From a virus, in the IMG/VR virus record IMGVR_UViG_3300036804_000069, positions 1 to 28,860 of that record: a stretch of 28,860 bases of DNA; one strand, 5' to 3'. Each line of letters opens with the position of its first letter. Position 1 is the first letter of the stretch. Positions 584 through 19,219 of the stretch are shown here, in pieces. A program made the position numbers and the translations under genes. The notes beneath the pieces are model-generated. The model made no database searches and had not been told where the DNA came from. It saw only the letters and a list, made by a program, of their open reading frames with translations.

Positions 584-745
584 ATGGGAACGCGCGAGGA
601 CATCACACAGGCTGTGGACGAGGGGGCTGAAGCTGGCCACCGCGGCGACCGGCCGACCGCATGCCCGTACCCGGCTGACACGCTGCTCCGCGCGGCGTGG
701 ATCCGCGGCTACGCCACCGTGCGCCCGATCACGACCGCGGACTGA
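584..745 (+). CDS. Rmf/CrpP-fold-like small protein
   Basis: This 53-residue protein is too short for usual ORF cut-offs but resembles the ribosome modulation factor/CrpP fold. It has a glycine-spaced first helix (EGAEAGHRG, residues 13-21), then a CPYP turn at 27-30, then LLRAAWIRGY at 34-43. E. coli Rmf has the same order (EAGxxG, CPY, W..GW). Rmf dimerises 70S ribosomes in stationary phase; actinobacterial and phage relatives are untested. I chose the ATG at 584 because a GGAG at 574-577 sits six bases upstream; an in-frame ATG at 578 overlaps the previous stop and would add two residues. The 3' end overlaps the convergent minus-strand gene by 17 bases. Family assignment is by motif only. 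The role could be ribosome hibernation or modification of host translation. Confidence 0.7.
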   Translation: MGTREDITQAVDEGAEAGHRGDRPTACPYPADTLLRAAWIRGYATVRPITTAD

Positions 746-1037
746 ACCGCACGACCGGGCGATAACCGTCGAGGTCGCCGACGGCAACGCCGAGCGCGCG
801 CAGCTGCTCGACGATGGCGCCGAGGCGTGACAGCTGGCGAGTGAGGGCGGACCACTGCACCACTCGCACCGTGTCGCCAGCCTCGACCGCGTTGACCATC
901 TCGCGCCATCCCGGCCCGATTTGCAGGGATGAGCCCGCGTCCCAGTAGACGCGCTCGCACCCGGCAGCGCGCAGCGCAGCGATGTCCCGTGCGCGTCTGT
1001 TCGGGCTGCTGTGCCGTACGTACCCATGCATCGTCAT
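729..1037 (-). CDS. Isolated resolvase-like N-terminal domain, catalytically degenerate
   Basis: The 102-residue product aligns along its whole length with the resolvase/invertase catalytic domain: GYVRHSS at 5-11, AAGCERVYWD at 24-33, then a GD-x-V strand and an LxRL helix. Tyr6, Arg8 and Ser10 match the family positions for active-site residues. However, the usual DRxxR helix reads SALTR (63-67), losing the Asp and first Arg. The C-terminal DNA-binding helix-turn-helix, zinc ribbon and coiled coil are absent. The ATG at 1037-1035 has a strong upstream GGGGGAG on the minus strand. It is the only minus-strand gene among the head genes and overlaps the Rmf-like gene tail to tail. It probably does not recombine DNA alone; it might be a regulator, a dimerisation partner or a relic. 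The family call is firm, the function unknown. Confidence 0.75.
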   Translation of the reverse strand: MTMHGYVRHSSPNRRARDIAALRAAGCERVYWDAGSSLQIGPGWREMVNAVEAGDTVRVVQWSALTRQLSRLGAIVEQLRALGVAVGDLDGYRPVVRFSPRS

Positions 1038-5413: not shown

Positions 5414-5928
5414 TGGCAGGGTTTCAGGCGCTCGCCGACTTCCTCGACGACGCGCTCGAACTTCCCGTGACGGGTCGCGATGGTGTCGAGCGGGTCTATC
5501 GGATCGAGGACCCGTCCGCGGAGGACGGCATCAAGATCGAGAAGATCACCACGCTCGCCGCTCGCCTCGCTGCGGGCGGCGAGGCCATCGAGTCCCCCGC
5601 CCTGGACGACGAGCAGGAACTCGACCTCTACCGCATGTGCCTCGGCTCGGCGTACGAGCAGCTGCGCGCCGACCTGTCGTGGGGGCGATTCCGGCACGTG
5701 GCTCTCACGGCCATGATGTGGATCACCGCCGACCGCGAGACCGCGGAAGCGTACTGGGCCACCGGGAACATGCCGGGAAAAGCGGCGCCGAACCGCGAGA
5801 CCAGGCGCCGGGCGTCGCGCGGCTCCTCGGCGTCGGTTGCGGCGAGTACGACGAAGCCACGGGCCTCTACGAGTGGTACGAGGGCGGCCTCGCCGCGCAG
5901 CCGCAAGGCGGCCACGGCCCCGCGCTGA
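5413..5928 (+). CDS. Tail assembly chaperone, zero-frame product
   Basis: The 171-residue product is the short form of the tail assembly chaperone (gpG-like) between tube and tape measure. Residues 1-120 form the conserved helical part (FQALADFLDDALELPV, then AEDGIKIEKITTLAARLAAG, then LGSAYEQLRADLSWGRFRHVALTAMMWITAD). The last 48 residues (Ser/Arg/Ala/Thr-rich) have low complexity. They overlap the -1 frame that encodes the conserved second domain, so they look like the by-product of dual coding. Its ATG shares a base with the tail tube stop. Confidence 0.85.
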   Translation: MAGFQALADFLDDALELPVTGRDGVERVYRIEDPSAEDGIKIEKITTLAARLAAGGEAIESPALDDEQELDLYRMCLGSAYEQLRADLSWGRFRHVALTAMMWITADRETAEAYWATGNMPGKAAPNRETRRRASRGSSASVAASTTKPRASTSGTRAASPRSRKAATAPR

Positions 5929-6131
5929 CGTGGGATGCCCTGCTCGCACAGTGGCCGCTCATTGAATGCGACCTGCACCAGGTCTACGGCATCGACGCCA
6001 GTAGCGGCGTACTCCGCGAGCGGTCATGGCGGTGGCTTCGCGCCCGCATAACCGGCCTGCTCTCCACTGAATGCCGCATCAACCGGCACTTCTCACCGCC
6101 CGACACCAACGGGCAGAAGGGAGGCCGGTAA
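5413..6131 (+). CDS. Tail assembly chaperone, -1 frameshift fusion product
   Basis: The -1 frame from 5781 to the stop at 6129-6131 has no start of its own and encodes a conserved-looking domain (LLGVGCGEYDEATGLYEWYE, then DALLAQWPLIECDLHQVYG, then RSWRWLRARITGLL). A -1 slip on the heptamer at 5775-5781 joins it to residues 1-123 of the zero-frame protein, giving about 239 residues, the equivalent of lambda gpGT. Such fusions keep the tape measure soluble and recruit tube subunits. The reading frame after the slip stops one base before the tape-measure ATG. Confidence 0.85.
5775..5781 (+). promoter_or_regulatory. -1 ribosomal frameshift slippery site G-GGA-AAA
   Basis: The heptamer GGGAAAA sits in the zero frame as CCG-GGA-AAA-GCG, exactly the X-XXY-YYZ register needed for simultaneous -1 slippage. 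A 7-bp stem follows (CGGCGCC at 5783-5789 pairing with GGCGCCG at 5804-5810, 14-nt loop), which could stimulate pausing although its spacing from the heptamer is short. The same heptamer is used by tail chaperone genes in many actinophages. Confidence 0.85.
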
Positions 6132-9100
6132 ATGGCGCTCACCATCGGCGAGTTGACCGGCTACATCACACTGGATGACCGGCAGGTCCGGCCCACGCTG
6201 CGCCGCGCAGAGGGCGATCTACGGTCGTCTGGGCAGCGGATGACTGCCACGGCCGGGCAGGCTGGTACGGCCGCGGGTCGGGCCCTTGGCGGCGGCGCCG
6301 CGGACGGTGCACAGTCCGGGCTTGACGAGGTGGAGGCGGCGGCGCGGGCGGCCGGCCGCCAGGCTGGAGCCGATCTCGCGGACGGTGTCCGTACTGGTCT
6401 GGCTGACCTTGACGGGGATGCGCGGCAGGCCGGTGGCGATGCGGGCGACGCTCTGACTGCTGGTGTGCGGTCGGGGCTCGGCGACCTGGACAGCACGGCC
6501 CGTACGGCGGGCAGGCGTGCGGGGGGCGCCCTCGGCGATGGTCTCGGTGACGGGGCGTCGACCGGGTCGAGTCGTCTGCGCCAGGTGGCGGAGTCTGCTT
6601 TCGCCAAGATCAAGGTGGCGGCGGTCGCGGCGGGTGTCGCGGCCGGCGCGGTGCTGATGCAGGGGATCGGTACGGCACTTGAGCAGGGCCAGGTGACGGG
6701 CCGTCTTGAAGCGCAGCTCGGCGCGACTCCTGCTGTGGCGAAGAAGTACGGAAAGATCGCCGGGTCCATGTATGCGGCCGGTGTGACTGAGGATTTCCAG
6801 GGCGCTGCGGACGCCATCTCTGTCACCATGCGTGCCGGTCTACTGCCGACCAGTGCGACGAATGCTCAGATCAAGAGCATTTCCACGAACGTGACCGATC
6901 TTGCGAACACGTTCGAACTGGATCTCGGGCAAACCGCAAACGCCATTGGCCAGATCATGAAGACCGGCCTTGCCCCGAACGCTAAGACCGCGCTTGACGT
7001 CATCACTAAGGGCCTGCAAGGGATGGGGCCAAGGGCCGATGATATTGCCGACACCTTCAATGAGTACTCGGTGATTTTTCAGCGTCTCGGCCTGAGTGCG
7101 CAGACCGCTACGGGGATTCTTTCGCAGGGCATGAAAGCCGGTGCGCGTGACACTGACGTGGTCGCCGACGCCCTTAAAGAATTCACCATTGAGGGCGTGG
7201 CGGGTAGCGACAAGATCGCTTCCGGCTTCAAAAACATCGGGCTGAACTCTGACCAAATGATCAAAATGATCGGGGAGGGAGGCCCGAAAGCCACCCAGGC
7301 GCTACAAATGACGCTGGACAAGCTCCGCGCAATGGAAGATCCGGTCAAGCGCGACGCCGCCGCAACAGAACTTTTCGGCACCAAGAGTGAGGACACACAG
7401 AAAGCGCTGCTTGCTCTCGACCCGTCGAAGGCCGTTAGCGCGCTCGGGAATTTCTCCGGTGCTGCGGACAAGGCCGGTACTTCTTTGCGCAACAATGCGG
7501 CCACACAGCTTGAGGCATTCAAGCGCGGGTTGCAGCAGAGCGTCGTAAATGTGCTGGCCTCGCAGGTGCTACCGGTGCTGCTCCGCTTCGGCACGTGGGC
7601 ACAGCAGAACTCCGGAACGCTCAAGATCCTCGCGGGGGTGATCGGCGGGGCTCTCGTGCCGGTCCTGGTGCTGATGGGCGTCACGGCGACGGTCTCGGCC
7701 GCACGCACGGTCGCGGCGTGGGTGACCACGGGTGCGTCGTCGCTCGCCTCGGCTGGTACGCAGGTGGCATCCGGTGCACGCGTGGCCGCTACGTGGCTGC
7801 TCATGGGTGTGCAGTCCATGATTCAGGGCGCGCGTATGGCTGCGGCGTGGGTGGTGGCGATGGGTCCGATCGGATGGGTTATCGCCGCGATTGTGGGACT
7901 GGCCGCGGTTATCTTCCTGAACTGGGACCGGATCAAATCTGCGACTAGTGCGGCGTGGGACTGGCTTTCTTCCAAGGTTGTGGGGGTCGGTAAATGGCTG
8001 CTCGACTTCTTCCTTAAATGGAACATCGTATCCATTTTCCTACGCCACTGGGACAGCATTAAGTCCGGTGTAACGAAAAAGGTCACCTCACTCCTCATCT
8101 ACCTCATCGCCCTTCCTGGGAGGATAAAGACCGCCCTCGGGAACCTAGGGTCGCTGCTGCTGGAAAAGGGCCGCAATATCGTCCAGGGCCTATGGACTGG
8201 CATCAAGGGTATGGGCGGCTGGATCAAGGGCAAGCTGATTAGCTGGGCCAAGGATTCAATTCCGGGCCCGATCGCAAAAGCCCTGGGCATTCACTCGCCG
8301 TCGAAGGTGACCAAGGCACAGGGGCAATGGATTGCGCGCGGCCTGATTGACGGGCTGACCGGCTCGACGAAACAGATCAAGGCCGCATCTACGAAGCTCG
8401 CAGACATGGTGACCGATGGTCTTCGGCCGGGCAAGAAGCGGGCGCAGGCTCTCGGGAAGATCAGTACCGGCAGTAAGAAGCTGGTCGCGCTCGCCAATCG
8501 GGAAGTCAAGATCGCGGGACAGCTTAAGTCCGCTCAGAAGAAACTTGCCGATCAGGTCGCGGCCCGCGACAAGCTCGCCGCTGACGTCCGTAAGGGCGTC
8601 CTCGACACCGGGAACATCACGTCGATGGACGGGCCCGCTACGGCGGACACGATCATCAACACTTTGGCCGCGCGGGTCGATCAGGCGCAGCGTTTCGCCG
8701 CTCAGCTTGCCACGCTCCGGAAAAAGGGCGTCCGGTCCGACCTGATCGCGCAGATCGCACAGGCCGGGGTCGAGCAGGGCGCATCGTCGGCCGCGGTGCT
8801 CGCGAACGCGTCGGCGTCGCAGATCAAGCAGATCAACGCGCAGCAGGCTGCACTCACCAAGGCTGCGACGGCCGCCGGAACCACTGCCGGTGACGCCATG
8901 TACGGCAGTGGCATTCAGGCCGCGCAGGGTCTCGTGAAGGGGCTCCAGTCGCAGCAAAAGGCGATCGAAAAGCAGATGCTGAAGATCGCGCGCGGCATGC
9001 AGGCCGCGATCAAGAAGGCCCTCGGCATCCACTCGCCGTCGCGAGTGATGGCCGCAATCGGCCAGTACATCCCGCAGGGGCTCGTGCAGGGCATCGATGG

Positions 9101-14088: not shown

Positions 14089-14670
14089 TCAGGCCTTCGC
14101 CTCGCCGAGGGCCGTCCGCAGCCAGTCCAGTGAGCCCTGACTCAGAAGCTCATCGGCAAGCCGCTGGCCGGTCTCGGTGACCAGACGGGCACGGCTGTTG
14201 TCGATCCACCGCTGTGCGTTCTCGTAGCCCTGGGCTTTGTACTCGATGCCCTGAAGCATGCATTCCAGCTTGTCCGCGTCTCGGGCGCAGATGGCCTCCC
14301 GTGATTCCTTGCCTTCGTACTCGGCGACAACGTCACGGATCGCCGATGCAAGCACCTCCGGCATGTCGGCCGTCTGGTCCGCGGTCACCTCCTGCGGGTC
14401 GCCGGCAGGTGCGTACTTCTTCCCGACGTAGTTCACGTCTCCGGTCCGGGTCTCTTGCGTGTCGTGCCACACCGCGAGGTAGGCAGCTCGGGCAGGGTCG
14501 GCACCCTCCAACTTCGCGATGATCGTGGCGATCAGCGATGTGCGCCATGAGTGCTCGGCAACACTCTCGGGGTCGCGGACCCCGGCCATCCACCAGCCAG
14601 TGCGCCGCGCCTGCTTGAGCGTGCCCGCCTCGTACAGGAAGCGGCCCACTGCGGACAGGTCGTCAGCCAT
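14089..14670 (-). CDS. HD-domain phosphohydrolase (YfbR/HDDC2-like 5'-deoxynucleotidase)
   Basis: The 193-residue protein has the HD metal site: His40 in PESVAEHSWR, His69-Asp70 in VWHDTQE, and a late Asp (131 or 133) in CARDADKLE. The opening phrase RTGWWMAGVRDPESVAEHSWR is characteristic of the HDDC2/YfbR group, which removes phosphate from dNMPs. Length matches that group. It is the downstream member of a two-gene minus-strand unit, 12 bases after the XRE regulator. In a phage it could adjust nucleotide pools, but HD genes beside such regulators are also seen in Streptomyces chromosomes. The block therefore looks host-derived. Substrate is inferred, not shown. Confidence 0.8.
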   Translation of the reverse strand: MADDLSAVGRFLYEAGTLKQARRTGWWMAGVRDPESVAEHSWRTSLIATIIAKLEGADPARAAYLAVWHDTQETRTGDVNYVGKKYAPAGDPQEVTADQTADMPEVLASAIRDVVAEYEGKESREAICARDADKLECMLQGIEYKAQGYENAQRWIDNSRARLVTETGQRLADELLSQGSLDWLRTALGEAKA

Positions 14671-17220: not shown

Positions 17221-18852
17221 CTACTCGGCCTCGGTGGTCACCTCGGCCCATGGGTCAGGCTCCCACATCGGGTGGACCTCGACGCTCACCCCGTTTTCCG
17301 TCCGGACGAGCGCCACCCGCCGCAGGAGCTGCTTCAGTAGAGCGTTCTTCTCGGTGTCGTGCATCTCGACCCAGGTATCCAGCAGCCCCATGAGGATCGG
17401 CTCGTAGTCGGTTCGGTGCGGCATGGTCTCCACCTTCGCTACCCGTTCCATCGCCGCCGTGTTCACCGCCTGCTGCTGCCTGATCCTGTCGCGCGTTGCC
17501 TCGTACTCACCAGGCCCGTACTCGTCCGGATTCATGGCCCGGTCGGCGCGTAGGTTCGTGAGGCCGGCCGCGAGCTTGATTGCTTCCGCTTCCAGCCGCG
17601 CCCGCTCGCGGGCCGCCATCGCCCTCTCGTCGATGACTGCACTGCGCGGGGCGGGGATTGGGGGCGCCGCGTCGATATCGGGGGCCACCTCCCGTTCCGC
17701 CCACGCGCGGACTTCCTTTTCAACGTGTGCGCGGTTTGCCCATACACCGCCGCAGCCATGCATTGCCGTGATAGCCCGTAGACCGCATGCGTAGGCGTAG
17801 CCGCGCACGTTGGTAACGACGCCTTTTACGGATCGCTGGGCTGACTGTGCGGGGACAGTCCCGTGGCACTCACCGCATTTGATCAGATTGGTGAGGGGGT
17901 AGAGCGCCCGTCGAGCCCGCGGCGGGGTCGCCTTGATTGCCTTGCGGCGCTCGCGGTACAGCTGCCACAGCTCCGCGTCAACCAAGTCCTCTTGGGCACC
18001 TGGCACGAAGAGCATGTCAGGGCAGTTGCCGCGTTTTTCCTGGGGGCACCGGCAGGCTGGATTGTGGACGCGGAGGAGCCCCGCGCAGAAGCCGGAATCC
18101 ATGTAGCGCATCAGGGTCTGTTGGGACCATGCGCCGCCGCGGACGGTGCGCCATCCGGCCTGGTTCAGGTCAGCCACCATGCCGTAAAAGGGGTCGCCGT
18201 CTACGTATTGCCTGTATCGGTCGGCCATAACCGGGCCGGTCTCTGGGTGAGCTGTGTACGTCTCTTCTTGCAGCCGCCATCCTGTCGGGGCTTGCGCATC
18301 AGGGACGCGGCGAGGCGTCCAAATGTACCCGAACCGAGGCCGACCGGTTGAGGGCAGGTGAAGTTTGTAGCGGCGGTGGTCGTGCGTCTCCCGCCACTGC
18401 TCGCCGCGTACGTCGCTTTCGTAGGCGGCGAATTCGAAGAGGATGCCGCGCTGGAGTCGGCCAGTGGCGGTGCGGGCGTCGCCTTCCTCGGTGGCGGATT
18501 GCAGCTGCCCGCCCGCATCTTCAAGGCGCTTGAGGTTGACCGCGACGCCGTCGCGGGTGCGCCCGAAGCGCGAGTATTTCCAGACCGCGATGCCCTTGAC
18601 GTCACCGGCTTCTATCCGCTTGATACCGCCCATGATCTTGCGTTTGAAGTTCCGGCCGGTTGTGTCAAGGTCGGTAATCCAATCGACGATGCGCCGGCCG
18701 GTGCGGGTGGCCCATGCCTCAATGGCGGTGCGTTGTAGCTCTGGGCTGATCTTTTCTTCCTTCCATGTGCTGACTCGGATGTAACCGAGCCAGGGCTCGC
18801 CGTCCTCATTGGTCGGCGAGCCCTGGAAGGTGGCTGGTACTGCTGTGGTCAT
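17221..18852 (-). CDS. int: Large serine integrase
   Basis: The 543-residue protein is a large serine recombinase. The catalytic domain (about 20-165) has YIRVST with catalytic Ser28, and AVWKYSRFGRTRDG with the helix-E arginines. A recombinase domain follows (about 185-290, GRPRFGYIW, then VADLNQAGWRTVRGGAWSQQTL). A zinc ribbon has CGEC and later C-x-C cysteines (LIKCGECHG, YACGL, HGCGG). A coiled coil (RERARLEAEAIKLAAGL) precedes the C-terminus. It would recombine attP with a host attB without supercoiling; excision needs a directionality factor not identified here. ATG 18852-18850 lies one base from the stop of the upstream membrane gene, which favours it over an extended frame reaching 19029 that overlaps that gene. 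Confidence 0.93.
   Translation of the reverse strand: MTTAVPATFQGSPTNEDGEPWLGYIRVSTWKEEKISPELQRTAIEAWATRTGRRIVDWITDLDTTGRNFKRKIMGGIKRIEAGDVKGIAVWKYSRFGRTRDGVAVNLKRLEDAGGQLQSATEEGDARTATGRLQRGILFEFAAYESDVRGEQWRETHDHRRYKLHLPSTGRPRFGYIWTPRRVPDAQAPTGWRLQEETYTAHPETGPVMADRYRQYVDGDPFYGMVADLNQAGWRTVRGGAWSQQTLMRYMDSGFCAGLLRVHNPACRCPQEKRGNCPDMLFVPGAQEDLVDAELWQLYRERRKAIKATPPRARRALYPLTNLIKCGECHGTVPAQSAQRSVKGVVTNVRGYAYACGLRAITAMHGCGGVWANRAHVEKEVRAWAEREVAPDIDAAPPIPAPRSAVIDERAMAARERARLEAEAIKLAAGLTNLRADRAMNPDEYGPGEYEATRDRIRQQQAVNTAAMERVAKVETMPHRTDYEPILMGLLDTWVEMHDTEKNALLKQLLRRVALVRTENGVSVEVHPMWEPDPWAEVTTEAE
18790..18826 (-). promoter_or_regulatory. Perfect 12-bp hairpin in the 5' coding part of int
   Basis: CCAGGGCTCGCC at 18790-18801 is exactly complementary to GGCGAGCCCTGG at 18815-18826, with a 13-nt loop. 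It lies 27-63 bases into the integrase reading frame. Such a strong stem just after a start codon can slow ribosomes, hide translation signals or cause early termination, so it may limit integrase synthesis. There is no T-run on the minus-strand transcript side. Confidence 0.55.
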
Positions 18853-18853
18853 G

Positions 18854-19219
18854 TCACTGAGCTTTCCGTTCGGGGTTGTTGGTGCCGGTGACGCGAGTGG
18901 GCAGCCGCCGGACGTTTTCGAAGTCAGCGTGGCCGCCGTCTCCGGTCGGCGCGGTGGTTGGCGGTTCAAGCAGGCCGCGGGCGACGTGGTCGAGGGCGAG
19001 GCGGTATCCGGCGGTGTGTGCGTCGGCAAGCTGGTCGGCTGCCACCTGTTGGGCGCGGCGTTGGGTCCAATAGACGACTACTGGGAGGGCGGCGAGTGTC
19101 GTAAGTAGGCCGACGGTAGCGAGCAGGTCGGCATGGTGGGTGGGAAGAAGTCCGGCAGCACCTGTGAGAAGTCCGGCCGTGACGGCGAGAATTGCGGCCG
19201 GCGGGATGGTGTGGCGCAT
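18854..19219 (-). CDS. Two-span membrane protein between repressor and integrase
   Basis: The 121-residue protein has two predicted membrane helices (about 5-26, IPPAAILAVTAGLLTGAAGLLP, and 32-51, LLATVGLLTTLAALPVVVYW) joined by a very short His/Asp loop. A 68-residue soluble tail follows, with a helix QRRAQQVAADQLADAHTAGYRLALDHVARGLL and a basic end. By the positive-inside rule the tail faces the cytoplasm. ATG 19219-19217 has GGAGG seven bases upstream. It lies 25 bases after the repressor gene and one base before int, so all three should share one transcript expressed in lysogens. No family is recognised. Superinfection exclusion is a reasonable guess from the position, not shown by sequence. 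Confidence 0.78.
   Translation of the reverse strand: MRHTIPPAAILAVTAGLLTGAAGLLPTHHADLLATVGLLTTLAALPVVVYWTQRRAQQVAADQLADAHTAGYRLALDHVARGLLEPPTTAPTGDGGHADFENVRRLPTRVTGTNNPERKAQ

Follow-up and report, generated by a model that had tools for sequence, protein, structure and literature searches.

Small serine recombinases, such as the Tn3/gamma-delta and Sin resolvases and the Gin and Hin invertases, consist of a catalytic core (Pfam Resolvase, PF00239), a helix E and a helix-turn-helix DNA-binding domain, in a total of about 185-205 residues. The catalytic set is made up of Ser10 together with Arg8, Asp67, Arg68, Arg71 and a loop Arg. The DRxxR residues are numbered 67, 68 and 71, and the loop Arg approximately 45, in the Tn3/gamma-delta resolvase numbering. 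Large serine integrases extend the core with recombinase and zinc-ribbon domains, and TnpA of the IS607 family carries an N-terminal MerR-type DNA-binding domain alongside helix E and an intact active site. Published accounts identify Ser10 as the catalytic serine of Tn3/gamma-delta-type resolvases (PMC9943657), and describe dimerisation of small serine recombinases through helix E and pairing of IS607 TnpA cores through helices B and D (PMC6188088). Searches of the open-licence literature on stand-alone, truncated or inactive serine-recombinase domains, and on reverse cargo in the head operons of Streptomyces phages, listed no description of a gene like the one analysed here.

A bare serine-recombinase core among phage head genes

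The window, by which we mean the entire 28,860-base stretch of DNA analysed, is a virus fragment with head genes 68-85% identical at the DNA level to those of Vondra-, SV1- and Raleigh-type Streptomyces phages. The features relevant to the present analysis are listed below.

3-581, + strand: C-terminal part of a head morphogenesis/capsid maturation protease (phrog_12049, E 1e-70)
584-745, + strand: gp5-like gene, 53 aa, whose homologues hold the corresponding position in Vondra, SV1, Raleigh and relatives
729-1037, - strand (stop codon included): P0001, a bare serine-recombinase core of 102 residues, from the open reading frame and its PF00239 and phrog_125 matches
1047-1053, - strand: GGGGGAG, a putative Shine-Dalgarno-like site 9 nt ahead of the P0001 start codon, read from the sequence
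1054-1076, + strand: terminator-like, T-tailed hairpin that bounds the cargo slot on the right and is conserved (20 of 30 stretches have a hairpin with a T tail)
1093-1111, + strand: second hairpin copy without T tail, from the comparison of hairpins across stretches
1136-1774, + strand: scaffold gene (phrog_2303 head scaffolding, 3.5e-5; phrog_8952, 2.5e-56; position of the Vondra scaffolding protein)
1792-2796, + strand: major capsid protein (phrog_212, E 6.4e-74)
17221-19029, - strand: large serine integrase of the phage (PF00239 and PF07508; phrog_95, E 3.6e-74), a candidate partner of P0001

A sequence-only reading of this DNA had described a stand-alone, degenerate serine-recombinase domain on the opposite strand, inside the head genes. 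The stand-alone nature and the strand are borne out: the 102-residue P0001 contains PF00239 alone and has no DNA-binding domain. Its location needs correcting: it occupies the intergenic gap between gp5 and scaffold, and the overlap with gp5 is confined to the final 17 nt of that gene.

P0001 matches the N-terminal domain model PF00239 with 44.6 bits (E 2e-11; cut-off 23.3), which rules out a chance antisense open reading frame, and further matches were obtained to the phrog_125 DNA invertases (E 1.3e-6) and to Sin (E 9.2e-6). PF00239 is the only domain above the Pfam cut-off, so the recombinase and zinc-ribbon domains of large serine integrases are absent; likewise, the core starts at residue 3 and there is no N-terminal MerR-type domain as in IS607-family TnpA. 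Nor is P0001 a piece of the phage's own integrase, with which it aligns at just E 0.44 (BLASTP). The top PDB sequence match, a designed repeat protein (7ong), was rejected as a composition artefact, its single stretches giving E values of 40 or more, and no family among the PADLOC defence models matched P0001 or P0002 (the related core described below) at E<=1. GC content by codon position is 0.72/0.54/0.83, compared with 0.72/0.52/0.83 for the neighbouring protease gene. The start codon is backed by P0002, as both proteins open with M-T in the same alignment column. Longer frames from 1202 or 1133 were rejected: they cross the hairpins and the 5' end of scaffold, and the P0002 start column corresponds to the ATG at 1037.

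An AlphaFold2 model, for which the window protein was combined with eight viral relatives, reached a moderate pLDDT of 75.3; the block containing SALTR averages 60, and residues 91-102 are unfolded with values below 50. The modelled fold superimposes on Tn3 resolvase (residues 1-101) with Z 13.7 and an rmsd of 2.1 over 95 aligned residues, and on gamma-delta resolvase (residues 1-102) with Z 13.1. The IS607-family TnpA core is predicted to share the fold (6dgc, Z 10.9), and IS607, large-integrase and unrelated Rossmann-like folds appear at lower ranks. As judged from the model, P0001 terminates at the residue equivalent to 102, where helix E would start, and it has no helix E. The open reading frame also ends without a C-terminal helix-turn-helix DNA-binding domain. 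Using eight C-terminal queries, tblastn revealed no convincing remnant of helix E or helix-turn-helix 3' of either P0001 or P0002, the best match covering 11 residues at E 0.018.

Loss of active site residues

Comparison with 66 rows of ordinary small serine recombinases shows which features of the core remain. P0001 resembles them in the core fold, the beta1 G-Y-x-R-x-S motif (G5, Y6, R8 and S10 are all retained), the G-D-T/V strand and the second Arg of DRxxR. As previously noted for Tyr6, Arg8, Ser10 and SALTR, the domain is degenerate, with WSALTR in place of the usual LDRxxR. S10, R8 and R71 are present, while D67 is replaced by Ser, R68 by Ala and the loop Arg by Gly. The last of these, at position 41, is Gly in both P0001 and P0002 and Arg in all 66 ordinary rows. 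Position 63 is Ser in P0001 and Ala in P0002 (Asp in 65 of 66), and position 64 is Ala in P0001 (Arg in 66 of 66), whereas P0002 keeps R68. The catalytic serine, for its part, is Asp in P0002 and Ser in 63 of the 66 rows. Both cores have gained Trp at positions 44 and 62, where Leu occurs in 60 and 61 of 66 rows respectively, and both retain R8 and R71. With the D67/R68 pair, the loop Arg, helix E and the DNA-binding domain all missing, P0001 is a core without the full chemistry.

A single relative, in a prophage with a different capsid gene

The searches gave a single further core that is both bare and degenerate. This protein, P0002 (L161:9573-9848, - strand; 91 residues, 26.2 bits against PF00239), is 43% identical to P0001 (42% in a second comparison) and comes from a genome sampled within the genus to which the L121 strain (Streptomyces sp. 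CB01580) belongs. It is flanked by a phage serine integrase with tRNA-Asp on one side and by an HNH gene on the other. Terminase, portal and capsid genes lie further on in the same prophage, the capsid being unlike that of the window when compared by eye. Like P0001, P0002 stands alone and faces against the late genes. It differs in R68, in the Asp at the catalytic serine and in its location, which is not the gp5-scaffold gap. In the genome search that gave P0002, ordinary recombinases are at most 39% identical, barring two short local matches (51 and 53%) inside long frames. The sequence-only reading had proposed collecting homologues with an eye to the degenerate motif and opposite orientation, and had reasoned that intact homologues with a C-terminal DNA-binding domain would mark P0001 as a recent fragment. 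The outcome was different: the closest homologue, at 43%, likewise consists of a degenerate core alone and is oriented against the late genes.

A phylogenetic tree pairs P0001 and P0002 outside the 66 ordinary recombinases with support of 99/92. The tree has few columns, its two branches are long, at 1.07 and 2.53 changes per column, and the outgroup rows were picked by a P0001 + P0002 profile. The pairing could partly reflect long-branch attraction, and the shared substitutions are the better argument for kinship. The two proteins have lost partly different residues of the same active site while frame and length are kept, which fits a lineage without chemistry that does something else. As just two members were found, conservation rests on one comparison at 43% identity with long branches.

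Searches for further members

Searches of the phage and plasmid collections with P0001 (tblastn) gave no match at E<=0.01 or 0.001. Relaxing the threshold to E<=10 returned 17 phage and 358 plasmid records, and the annotated ones among the matches listed are recombinases, invertases or resolvases; no ordinary relative in the 17 phage records is an actinophage protein. P0002 returned 95 phage records at E<=10, with DNA invertases among the matches listed. Scans of viral contigs with P0001, A1, P0002 and a DNA pattern confirmed ordinary recombinases as relatives and no new bare core. Among these relatives, L164 continues beyond the edge of its contig and L166 is embedded in a longer out-of-register frame; both keep LDR..R. 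One further hit, L195, is a chance match. None of the 165 stretches of genome contigs obtained with P0001 was confirmed, and no further bare core was found in 1969 genome slots (overlapping draws); members could have been missed here, as the best 12 first-look candidates were scored in most genomes.

The searches also turned up another type of serine recombinase without a DNA-binding domain (L163:5361-6323, + strand, and L162:5102-5576, + strand, both G092; L140, G133). It consists of a tandem pair of cores, of which the second carries YDRLGR and ends just past a helix-E-like AEYEHAWKLEK. The L162 copy is frameshifted and belongs to the same genome as P0002.

A variable cargo slot between gp5 and scaffold

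In the named relatives of the window, protease, gp5, a gap of about 105-116 nt, scaffold and capsid follow one another in order. To survey this gap, we used 30 distinct gp5-to-capsid stretches and recorded the distance from gp5 to the T-tailed GC hairpin, the 10 stretches without such a hairpin being left uncounted. The distance was 26-41 nt in 14 of the 20 remaining stretches and 308-1162 nt in the other six, namely the window (311 nt), L114 (308 nt), L088 (390 nt), L083 (498 nt), L018 (881 nt) and L111 (1162 nt). The inserts of the relatives have no homology to P0001, and none of the 29 other distinct stretches contains this gene. A tblastn search with P0001 across 119 head-region loci likewise gave wrong-frame noise only, the best match (E 0.009) being antisense of the protease region.

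The slots of L018 and L111 hold forward genes of 223 and 368 aa respectively. L112, whose hairpin was unscored, carries in the same slot a 284-aa protein (5847-6701, + strand) with apparent membrane segments and a weak match, below the cut-off, to the two-transmembrane domain CyanoTRADDas_TM. Reverse genes ahead of scaffold were found in L010, L013, L020, L041 and L061, some encoding small HTH-like proteins below the Pfam cut-offs; of these, L020 is one of the 30 stretches, and the other four fall outside them, having no gp5 match. Family searches assigned no function to most of this cargo. Relatives thus have either no gene or other genes at the place occupied by P0001, as is expected of cargo. 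The coexistence of short and long gaps, with unrelated genes on either strand, indicates that the gp5-scaffold gap is a variable cargo slot of which P0001 is one occupant, and the slot offers a place to look for other cargo in this phage family.

Two observations concern the slot and its border. A reverse family, EVGPLLEAEAMRK...PGQVDIWEACAEVAAE, lies ahead of scaffold in three relatives (L010:3958-4179, L013:3946-4215 and L041:3962-4294, all - strand); the L013 copy matched no Pfam family and adjoins a reverse HTH-like gene. On the right-hand side, two GC hairpins whose loops are of the CCAGG type stand at 1054-1111 of the window and at the same place in relatives, and the first of them is followed by a T tail. 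At least one hairpin was detected in 23 of the 30 gp5-to-capsid stretches, two or more in 21 and a T tail in 20, using a loose filter by which a few counted hairpins lie elsewhere in the stretch. Standing before scaffold, this terminator-like site may determine how much scaffold is made relative to protease.

A proposed repurposing of the core as phage cargo

The anatomy of P0001 is well supported, and the gene itself is real, unusual and rare. As to its role, the explanation we favour, with about even confidence, is that P0001 is a cargo gene of a Streptomyces-type temperate phage in which a recombinase core has been repurposed as a non-enzymatic binding protein. This small serine recombinase core has lost residues of its chemistry (D67, R68 and the loop Arg), the dimerisation helix E and the DNA-binding domain; the protein would be made and kept by selection. 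As an extra, sporadic gene facing the other way between conserved genes, P0001 resembles the accessory ('moron') genes of prophages in its placement. Accessory loci of prophages are often read independently of the late operon, according to one study (PMC7067206), and P0001 may be expressed in this manner, as reversed cargo genes often are; a scan for sigma-70-type promoter-like sites found none for P0001, with none expected. The protein would work by binding as opposed to DNA cutting, most likely targeting another serine-recombinase core or another protein via its surface and former active-site pocket. Without helix E, the core might self-pair via helices B and D as in IS607 TnpA, or contact another core through a surface like the R interface seen in the Tn3 and Sin resolvases. 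The absence of P0001 from the 29 other stretches speaks against the cargo reading, as the gene might have arrived recently and be short-lived. Should the clade prove real, a core kept without chemistry would give this fold a second, non-enzymatic life in phages.

The main rival, which we consider possible though doubtful, is a decaying fragment: a mobile element would have brought in a small resolvase or invertase gene, which would since have been deprived of its 3' half and now be drifting. The missing helix E and helix-turn-helix, the lost active-site residues and the absence from all close relatives are in keeping with decay, and frameshifted serine-recombinase copies do occur in the genome of P0002 (L162). 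Set against this, the reading frame is unbroken, its GC by codon position is host-like, and a second, independent bare core of near-equal length shares the Arg to Gly change at position 41, the loss of D67 and both new Trp residues. The existence of P0002, together with the lack of a convincing C-terminal remnant beside either gene, weakens the decay explanation.

It is unlikely that P0001 acts as a dominant-negative partner of an active serine recombinase, be it the phage's own integrase, that of a rival phage or a host resolvase. A core without chemistry could poison a tetramer, and contacts between catalytic cores outside helix E exist in the Tn3 and Sin resolvases (the 'R interface'; PMC9943657). 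However, helix E is the main dimer and tetramer contact, and its absence makes dimerising with the integrase in the usual form less likely; P0001 also bears little resemblance to the window integrase (the BLASTP alignment above), and no actinophage protein occurs among its ordinary relatives in the phage collection. A related proposal, that a chemistry-dead core free of DNA-binding parts, made from the prophage, serves as an actinophage decoy, capping incoming serine integrases and blocking integration by competitors, we regard as quite unlikely. Serine integrases underlie Streptomyces vectors and many tools of genome engineering, so a natural protein that bound and blocked them would be useful.

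A nucleic-acid-binding remnant appears distinctly improbable. Such a domain would bind DNA or RNA through R8 and R71 without cutting and act as a small regulator of late genes, and both members do retain these two arginines, R71 being the second of DRxxR. However, neither the DNA-binding domain nor the portion of helix E that enters the minor groove is left, and no sequence-specific contact is predicted.

Finally, the earlier suggestion of an antisense RNA element on head transcripts, with the protein incidental, is very improbable: the opposite orientation, the overlap with gp5 and the lack of a minus-strand terminator-like site in 560-1800, which may permit minus-strand read-through, agree with it, but the gene sits in an intergenic gap, with a 17-nt overlap it leaves the greater part of every head gene free of antisense sequence, and frame and domain are preserved in P0002, away from the same head genes.

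Elsewhere in the window, the lysis genes are followed by an HD-domain protein (14089-14670, - strand) that matches HD_3 with 93 bits and a YfbR-like family with 41 bits, as well as a phrog dATP triphosphohydrolase; a nucleotide-pool or defence function is possible.
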